From NCBI GenBank assembly GCA_030535875.1, contig JAUNRC010000007.1, positions 4,145 to 62,631 on the forward strand: a stretch of DNA of 58,487 nucleotides, in the 5' to 3' direction. The number at the start of each line of letters is the position of its first letter. Within the stretch, counting starts at the first letter, position 1. The notes beneath the pieces are model-generated. The model did not search any database. It was not told where the DNA came from and saw only the letters and a program-made list of their open reading frames with translations. A program made the translations under genes and the position numbers. Origin of the DNA: Akkermansia sp. (lineage in GTDB: Bacteria; Verrucomicrobiota; Verrucomicrobiia; Verrucomicrobiales; Akkermansiaceae). This document shows, one piece after another, positions 57,249-58,487 of this stretch.

Positions 57249-58280
57249 TTACTTACCCTTTTCTTCGAGCTTGGCCTTGACTTTCTCTTCGACTTCGGCG
57301 TAGAGCTCGGGGTTGTTGCGGAGGGTTTCCTTCGCGGCATCGCGTCCCTGTGCGAGTTGGCTGCCGTTGTAGCTGAACCAGGAGCCGCGCTTTTGGATGA
57401 CATCGTACTCCATGGCAAGGTCGATGAGCGAACCGACGGAGGAAATGCCCTCGTTGTACATGATGTCGAACTCACATTCGGTGAAGGGGGGTGCAACCTT
57501 GTTTTTAACGACCTTGAGTTTGGTTCGGTTGCCGGCTACGGTGCCATCGGCTCCTTTAATCTGGCCGATGCGGCGGATGTCGCAGCGCACGGAGGCATAG
57601 AATTTGAGGGCTCGGCCGCCGGGGGTTGTCTCGGGGTTGCCGAACATTACGCCGATTTTCTCACGGATTTGGTTGGTGAAGATGCAGACGGTGCGAGCCT
57701 TGGAGATGAGGGAGGTGAGCTTGCGCAGAGCGGCGCTCATCAGGCGGGCCTGAGCGCCTACGGTGCTGTCACCGATTTCACCTTCCAGTTCCTGACGGGT
57801 TACGAGAGCTGCCACGGAGTCGACGACAATCACGTCGATGGCATTGGAACGCACCAGAGCCTCGCAGATTTGCAGGGCTTCTTCACCGCTGTTGGGCTGC
57901 GAGACGAGCAGGTCGTCGAGCTTTACTCCGAGCTTGGCGGCGTAGGAGGGATCCAATGCGTGTTCTACGTCGATAAAGGCTGCCAGTCCGCCGGCGCGCT
58001 GAGCCTGTGCAATGACTGTGAGGGTGAGGGTGGTCTTGCCGGAGGACTCCGGTCCGAAAATTTCAACGATTCGGCCACGCGGCACACCGCCTGCTCCCAG
58101 AGCTCGGTCAATCAGCAGATTACCGGTGGGGATGACCTCGACCTCCATGGCCTTTTTGTCACCCAGTCGCATGATGGCATTTTCGCCGAAGTCTTTCTGG
58201 ATTTGGAGCATAGCGGCATCGAGCGCGCGCTGGCGCTGAGCCTGCAGCTTATCCTGTTCGGGGGAAATTTCTTTACTCAT
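57249..58280 (-). CDS. recA: Recombinase RecA
   Basis: This 343-residue strand-exchange protein has Walker A GPESSGKT, Walker [11 protein letters not shown], the DNA-binding loop 1/2 regions ([40 protein letters not shown]) and a charged C-terminal tail. I place the start at 58280 ([11 protein letters not shown]); an in-frame extension to 58325 would run through the promoter. The putative promoter (TTGCAT, 17, TAAGCT) ends 10 bases before the start. No palindromic LexA box of the E. coli or Bacillus kind was seen in the visible upstream region. Confidence 0.97.
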
Positions 58281-58319: not shown

Positions 58320-58371
58320 GTCCAAAATCTGCCAGCAGGATAAAAAGCATGCCGAGCTGTTGATTTATATC

Positions 58372-58487
58372 ACCGCTCGCAGAGCGGTCTTCACGGCGAC
58401 TCCGTCAGGAGTCGCTCTTCACACCGCTCGTGAGAGCGGTCTTCACGGCAGCTCCGTCAGGAGCTGCTCTTCACATCGCTCGCAGAG
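58372..58487. repeat. Tandem array of alternating, covarying hairpins (51/52-bp unit), open at the window end
   Basis: Unit 1 (58372-58422) and unit 2 (58423-58474) each hold hairpin type A (arms ACCGCTC and GAGCGGT) and type B (GCGACTCC/GGAGTCGC in unit 1; GCAGCTCC/GGAGCTGC in unit 2, loop GTCA), joined by constant CTTCAC linkers. A third unit begins at 58475 with ATCGCTC and is cut by the window edge. In type B two base pairs change on both arms together, so pairing is preserved. Unit lengths of 51 and 52 break any reading frame, arguing against coding. Its function is unknown. Confidence 0.85.

Follow-up and report, generated by a model that had tools for sequence, protein, structure and literature searches.

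A hairpin array next to recA in an Akkermansia genome is probably one arm of an S23-associated mobile element

Among the described systems closest to the element reported here is the intervening sequence (IVS) of 23S rRNA genes, in which a protein of the S23 family, a four-helix bundle, lies between inverted ends; its spread is sporadic and selfish-looking, and in Coxiella the ends form one 28-bp terminal stem (PMC4990558, excerpted text). The same excerpts give the function of S23 proteins as not known as of 2016 and describe the Xanthomonas S23 as a homopentamer; the nearest solved chain to S23, 2rld, was deposited as five chains. The Akkermansia elements share the protein, the inverted ends and the manner of spread, but they are situated between protein genes (that of the window between recA and an oxidoreductase gene) and not inside an rRNA gene, their ends are built of several hairpins with fixed linkers in place of the single stem, and they include gene-less copies and many linker families. 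Avd of the diversity-generating retroelements, a four-helix-bundle protein related to S23, is likewise a pentamer and acts together with structured nucleic acid and a reverse transcriptase; in contrast, RVT_1 was detected in 13 of the 59 genomes of our genus sample, and none was found in the genome to which the window belongs.

REP, BIME and REPIN sequences (the GTAG and CGTC superfamilies) are short intergenic palindromes with a fixed word at the foot and varying stems, occurring in clusters and inverted pairs and proposed to act as folded single strands, as far as the consulted parts of that literature describe them. The Akkermansia arms resemble them in these respects, but the linker of the window is CTTCAC and not a GTAG or CGTC tag (a sister family uses ATATCGTC), an arm consists of four to five unlike hairpins, no Y1 transposase is constantly present, and the larger relatives contain an S23 gene. 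MITEs derive from gene-bearing elements as short copies that have inverted ends but no gene and are scattered over intergenic sites; the gene-less Akkermansia elements resemble them in these features. The latter differ from MITEs in the lack of a consistent target-site duplication, and the gene-bearing relatives that were read encode S23 and not a known transposase.

The window, i.e. the whole stretch of 58,487 nucleotides that was analysed, is the terminal part of contig C58 in a draft genome (G000; 2,075,511 bases in 108 contigs). Its last bases hold, on the forward strand, an array of the order A-B-A-B-A, comprising four hairpins and the beginning of a fifth. The outermost unit, A1 (58372..58388; ACCGCTC-gca-GAGCGGT, with a 7-bp stem and GCA loop), is followed by linker 1 (CTTCAC, 58389..58394), hairpin B1 (58396..58415; GCGACTCC-gtca-GGAGTCGC, with an 8-bp stem and GTCA loop), linker 2 (CTTCAC, 58417..58422), hairpin A2 (58423..58440; 7-bp stem, GTGA loop), linker 3 (CTTCAC, 58441..58446), hairpin B2 (58448..58467; GCAGCTCC-gtca-GGAGCTGC, 8-bp stem, GTCA loop), linker 4 (CTTCAC, 58469..58474) and the partial hairpin A3 (58475..58487), which is cut by the contig end. 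The original prediction of such hairpins joined by CTTCAC words at these positions was thus accurate, and the arrangement lies well beyond chance: the longest chain of CTTCAC words spaced 18–34 bp apart has 4 members in the window against a maximum of 2 in 300 base shuffles, and the fold z-score of 58369–58487 is -6.6, as compared to -0.4 on average and -3.9 at the lowest over 49 control stretches of the window. It had also been held that the array is not a CRISPR, and this was borne out, as there are no unique spacers between the palindromic units and the linkers are of a fixed 6 bp. At the gathering threshold Rfam recovered one tRNA elsewhere in the window and no match at the array. The left end of the element was placed at about 58369, and homology with the empty sites described below ends at about 58353 in the left flank; recA (57249..58280, reverse strand; an ORF with a predicted start codon) is its left neighbor and was judged to lie outside it. 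At the opposite end of the window, positions 3–154 hold a 72-bp tandem repeat in 2.1 copies that would read as a histidine-rich stretch.

Between B1 and B2 two pairs are altered on both sides, GA to AG in the left half of the stem with TC to CT in the right, as originally noted. The wider claim, that stems are kept by paired changes while linkers stay fixed, was supported by a set of 66 distinct units from eight genomes, each lying between two exact CTTCAC words: 55 of them form a perfect stem of 5 bp or more, as against 3.7% of base shuffles. For 12 units of equal length picked from the 66, 98.6% of cells are paired as opposed to 70.4% after shuffling, 21 cells are changed on both sides as opposed to 6.7, and the covariation score is 0.727 as opposed to 0.179 +/- 0.050, none of the 500 shuffles reaching any of these values, with the proviso that the units are related and the shuffles ignore kinship. 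Sliding the columns by 1–3 positions gives scores of at most 0.101. Counts of doubly changed pairs (4 vs 3.1 shuffled) and of further pair types (7 vs 6.8) do not rise above the shuffles in the same units. Another copy of the recA element, located on contig C16 some 7 kb farther on (L013; 89% over 211 bp), has by eye a third B stem, GCGGCTCC/GGAGCCGC, beside decayed linkers. As this stem is one pair off both B1 and B2, the adjacent double change may be read as two independent paired changes.

Among the other contigs, C16 was found to repeat the last 45 bases of the window exactly at its start; when the genome was searched for a 23-base pattern spanning the junction, with up to 3 mismatches allowed, there was one match. 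The joining of C58 to C16 is thus suggested by sequence overlap, and it is supported by relatives in which recA lies next to the same oxidoreductase gene. Beyond the overlap (locus L295, at 46–49) the bases CGGT close the third A stem with one G.T/G.U pair, so that the closure of the stem after 58487 had been foreseen correctly, but not the exact letters, given as CGAT. A further CTTCAC, as part of a tandem array running on past 58487, had also been expected; none follows on the same strand in C16, because the center of the element has been reached. After CGGT there is a short spacer, TAAAAAAGAGTATAAAATAA, and then an inverted right arm, which ends at about L295:192 and has four clear hairpins, a weaker innermost one and the linkers GAGAAG, GAGAAG, GTGAAG and GCGAAG. 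The arms thus constitute terminal inverted repeats in that they are inverted and have like linkers, with stems that differ between the two. Past the right arm, a gene whose translation reads as an oxidoreductase begins at L295:304. The array therefore belongs to an element with two arms, about 266 bp long and located between recA and the oxidoreductase gene; the second arm, and the link to S23, escaped the original prediction because they lie beyond the window.

In four relatives (L088, L089, L090 and L093) the sequences matching the two flanks of the joined locus lie side by side, with the element absent and recA and the oxidoreductase gene adjacent; in the same test four others (L091, L092, L094 and L095) align on the recA side only. 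A candidate target-site duplication, AGCAGGAYAAAAAGCWTGCC, is suggested by the overlap of the flanks by 20–21 bp in L088, L089 and L090, where it is present in single copy; the L093 empty site shows no such overlap. Its left copy, AGCAGGATAAAAAGCATGCC, is at 58334..58353 on the forward strand and its right copy, AGCAGGACAAAAAGCTTGCC, at L295:228. Other sequence separates these copies from the arms (15 bp on the left and 35 bp on the right), hence this is not a textbook duplication. A search of 38 S23 elements likewise found no general signal of target-site duplication. Scores higher than the 99th percentile of controls were obtained for 5: three represent alignments of duplicated arm sequence, L262 results from a slicing error and L082 has a 15-bp exact repeat about 120 bp out.

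A tie of the array to recA was not supported. Matches to recA were found in 68 of the 75 relatives searched, and among the 29 whose recA loci were compared, none of the 28 with 1,200 bp of upstream sequence has the array upstream of recA by exact-word search. In one relative (L111) a pair of CTTCAC-type words, spaced 20 bp apart, lies 942 bp from recA. A comparable insertion is offered by the L070 element of genome G080, which consists of two CTTCAC arms with S23 between them. Nine relatives were examined for it: the element is absent from L327, L333 (the window's own genome) and L334, with flanks aligning on both sides; L329 also aligns on both flanks, though TTTTCAC words persist there and perhaps represent a decayed arm; in L330, L331, L332 and L335 a single flank aligns; and the orientation in which L328 was scored shows only an S23 match.

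In the genome bearing the window, CTTCAC-linked hairpins are found at about nine loci, on contigs C3, C6, C8, C13, C16, C33, C58, C66 and C104. Relatives of the right arm (81–85% over 123–125 bp) are found at L010 (G000:C3:10500-12906), where seven tandem hairpin arms, counted by eye, include an S23 gene (PF05635 match) among them and reach the contig end. In another genome of the genus, L043 (G035:C58:7000-21857) shows several arms within 15 kb, some of them with a second, CGCC-rich repeat downstream. A pattern search of the genus sample gave matches in at least 24 of the 59 genomes, many of them plain CTTCAC-rich repeats; among the matches listed, hairpin arrays were recognized by eye in G000, G002, G009, G023, G030 and G035, out of 37 genomes of the genus. 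A GTDB-wide scan gave at least 118 loci, and among the matches listed 6 of 118 have stems of at least 4 bp in both units: L119 and L146, both of Akkermansia, are arrays like that of the window, and the remaining four have the appearance of coding or tandem repeats. As the real array of G023 (L184) falls below this cut, the scan says little beyond the genus.

The S23 domain (PF05635, 23S_rRNA_IVP) is found in 44 of the 59 genomes of the genus sample and in 100 of the 145 of the phylum sample. Reading of the flanks revealed inverted arms around S23 genes, with the linkers CTTCAC, ATATCGTC, ATTTCGTC, CTTTCACG, TTTTCATT and others, which differ between elements and usually match between the two arms of one element. 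This was quantified by asking for a 6-mer shared at least 3 times on each side of the gene: within 500-bp flanks, 63 of 91 S23 genes pass (testable genes out of 94 distinct ones, 3 being at contig edges), the corresponding counts being 147 of 1,999 for mismatched pairs and 36 of 2,000 for control places. Splitting the genes by the length of the domain match (about 98 vs 101 residues; 84 of the 94 genes, 300-bp flanks) showed that 37 of 41 members of the 98-residue class pass with their own arms, against 16 of 86 mismatched pairs from the same genome and 220 of 1,554 from other genomes; the figures for the 101-residue class are 18 of 43, against 1 of 24 and 70 of 1,782. Perfect stems of at least 6 bp within 400 bp on each side have medians of 8 (98-residue class, n=42), 2 (101-residue class, n=46) and 1 (control, n=57), the two classes differing at p=3e-10. 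The 98-residue class is nearly one clade, with two changes of class label over a tree of 90 S23 proteins. The 101-residue loci that were read show short inverted words and no long hairpins. Of 30 S23 loci from beyond the genus, 13 reach the arm score used within it, against 83 of 2,000 mismatched draws, of which about one in thirty pairs a locus with itself. In other families of the phylum (L296, L300, L306, L307, L312, L319 and L323) S23 is by eye flanked by inverted short tandem words, such as AGTGGCTAGTGG, GTGAATCGTGAATC, GTTGAAAGGTTGAAA and others, with no hairpin arrays; L312 and L323 have an upstream gene in common and different flanking words.

S23 proteins that are 60–84% identical can carry unrelated flanking words, which implies that the words drift faster than the match within an element. 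Word sharing climbs with S23 identity: 0.8% of pairs share words where the identity is below 0.3, and 78% where it exceeds 0.8 (81 of the 94 genes), a rise that plain descent also explains. The S23 cassettes of L284/L287 and of L268/L278, in each case behind the same upstream gene in different genomes, have by eye words that differ and are changed on both sides. The sister linker ATATCGTC (L065, L071, L085, L086 and L242) includes the CGTC tag of a REP superfamily, which has been reported to be without a dedicated transposase (PMC3733652, part of the text); S23 could be the missing partner of this superfamily. Among 46 CTTCAC arms, the linkers number 4 in 23, 3 in 12, 5 in 9 and 2 in 2. In the 23 four-linker arms an outer stem of at least 5 bp is seen in 18 and an innermost one in only 3, so an arm is best described as four clear hairpins and an imperfect innermost unit, not strictly five; on this recount a strict set of five hairpins per arm, matching a pentamer, was dropped. 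The window element has no S23 gene, in distinction to sister elements such as L049 and L070, which encode it between their arms. No catalytic gene was seen: the window element has no room for one, and S23 is the gene between the arms in the sister elements read. A literature search, mostly outside subscription journals and preprints (titles and abstract openings), yielded no report of hairpin arms bracketing S23, and the main text of the RepRanger paper (PMC12306157) contains none of the terms Akkermansia, Verrucomicrob, S23 and RAYT.

The loops of the hairpins bear on which molecule folds. Of the loops of 3–4 nt in 5' arms, 48 of 114 are of the G..A kind (43 with a C-G closing pair) and 16 of the mirror T..C kind; in 3' arms the G..A kind accounts for 8 of 111 and the T..C kind for 54. 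The recA-locus controls have 6 G..A loops in 93. The commonest short-loop type is accordingly a C-G-closed GNA or GNNA on the inward strand, and all five loops of the window arm, the fifth being completed in C16, are of the G..A kind. GNRA is the rule for stable RNA tetraloops, and only 6 of the 14 GNNA loops in 5' arms fit it. In DNA, GNA and GNNA loops form unusually stable mini-hairpins (PMC4686876, part of the text). As G..A loops in 5' arms are mirrored by T..C loops in 3' arms, each strand has stable hairpins in its own 5' arm, and this, together with the DNA-stable loops, leads us to favor folded single-stranded DNA over RNA with modest confidence.

Taken together, the array is likely an arm of an S23-associated mobile element. 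On balance we favor its interpretation as the left arm of a two-armed, gene-less relative of the S23-carrying elements, which is likely mobile DNA whose arms would act as folded single strands recognized by S23. A hairpin-based mobile or protein-bound repeat had been among the readings first proposed, and it remains the best one after the analysis. The S23 protein of the IVS points to an RNA-level alternative, by which the cassette would be transcribed, its arms would pair linker to linker into a four-way-junction ladder, RNase III would cut and S23 would bind the RNA, which may also be what happens in the S23-bearing IVS of 23S rRNA. The inverted ends common to both systems, the excision of the IVS by RNase III (PMC4990558, excerpted text) and the folding of the whole element with pairs between linkers of the two arms (z = -8.7 on the forward and -9.6 on the reverse strand) are in keeping with it. 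We nevertheless consider it unlikely, as the elements read sit between protein genes and not in rRNA, the linker changes GAGAAG and GCGAAG of the right arm are uncompensated in the left, only 6 of the 14 GNNA loops in 5' arms fit GNRA, and the G..A bias is on opposite strands in the two arms, when a single transcript would show it in one arm only.

Movement in trans by a Y1 (RAYT-like) transposase, in the manner of REP and REPIN palindromes, is more improbable still. Palindromes that occur in clusters, both in tandem and inverted, and are each accompanied by a short constant word do recall REP clusters (PMC3116915 and PMC3733652, in part), and Y1_Tnp is found in 38 of the 59 genomes, with 1 copy in that of the window. 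However, the gene seen inside arms is S23, this sole Y1 gene (L057) has no CTTCAC array in the flanks examined, and G006 (95% complete), G009 (93%) and G030 (87%) have arms and S23 with no Y1_Tnp detected, an absence that is uncertain in drafts but weakens the proposal. A reverse transcriptase in trans was set aside in view of the RVT_1 distribution given above, none having been found in the arm-bearing G000, G002, G009, G035 and G080; in these incomplete drafts the arms are not invariably found together with Y1 or with RVT_1 genes. The intergenic position and strong folding would suit a structured RNA or attenuator serving recA or the oxidoreductase gene, a very improbable reading that was rejected because relatives lack the array: it is missing upstream of recA in all testable relatives and from the four with the same gene pair, and the same kind of arm is found at other loci of the genome. 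Drift of a tandem duplication or an assembly artefact might be suspected as the window stops at a contig end inside the repeat and further arrays of this genome are likewise situated at contig ends; yet arrays also occur inside contigs, and the excess of perfect stems, double-change cells and covariation over shuffles leaves it scarcely credible. Both of these last readings are largely refuted.

Returning to the S23-associated mobile element, its mobility is well supported by the sequence comparisons, and we infer a role for S23 and an enzyme in the movement. When a strand is exposed, e.g. at replication, each arm would form four or five very stable mini-hairpins, arranged like a comb, with the linkers between them remaining single-stranded. 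An S23 oligomer might then grip the combs of both ends and draw them together for copying or joining at a new place, and gene-less copies such as that of the window would be moved in trans. That S23 binds the arms is predicted with slightly better than even confidence; that it does so as single-stranded DNA and not RNA is a more tentative prediction. An S23 ring may hold an arm, and a one-to-one fit of its subunits to hairpins is speculation.

S23 genes are common in the genus and the phylum and are without known function, and the spread of S23-carrying rRNA intervening sequences is unexplained. An old suggestion is that the ORF of the IVS had a role in mobility (Ralph and McClelland 1993, according to the excerpts of PMC4990558). 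The S23 genes bracketed by matching, covarying arms, the empty sites and the gene-less copies make this idea testable by binding and mobility assays, and arms that match mainly within their own element provide a simple rule for finding such cassettes in other phyla. A bolder and rather doubtful proposal is a new class of mobile element run by a protein without a known enzyme fold, in which an S23 ring would hold the mini-hairpin comb of each end as single-stranded DNA, with about one subunit per hairpin, and many S23 genes outside rRNA across Verrucomicrobiota would be the cargo of elements with inverted arms, the words of which differ between and match within elements. If this were true, the rRNA intervening sequences would gain a mobile ancestor and S23 would gain a function.
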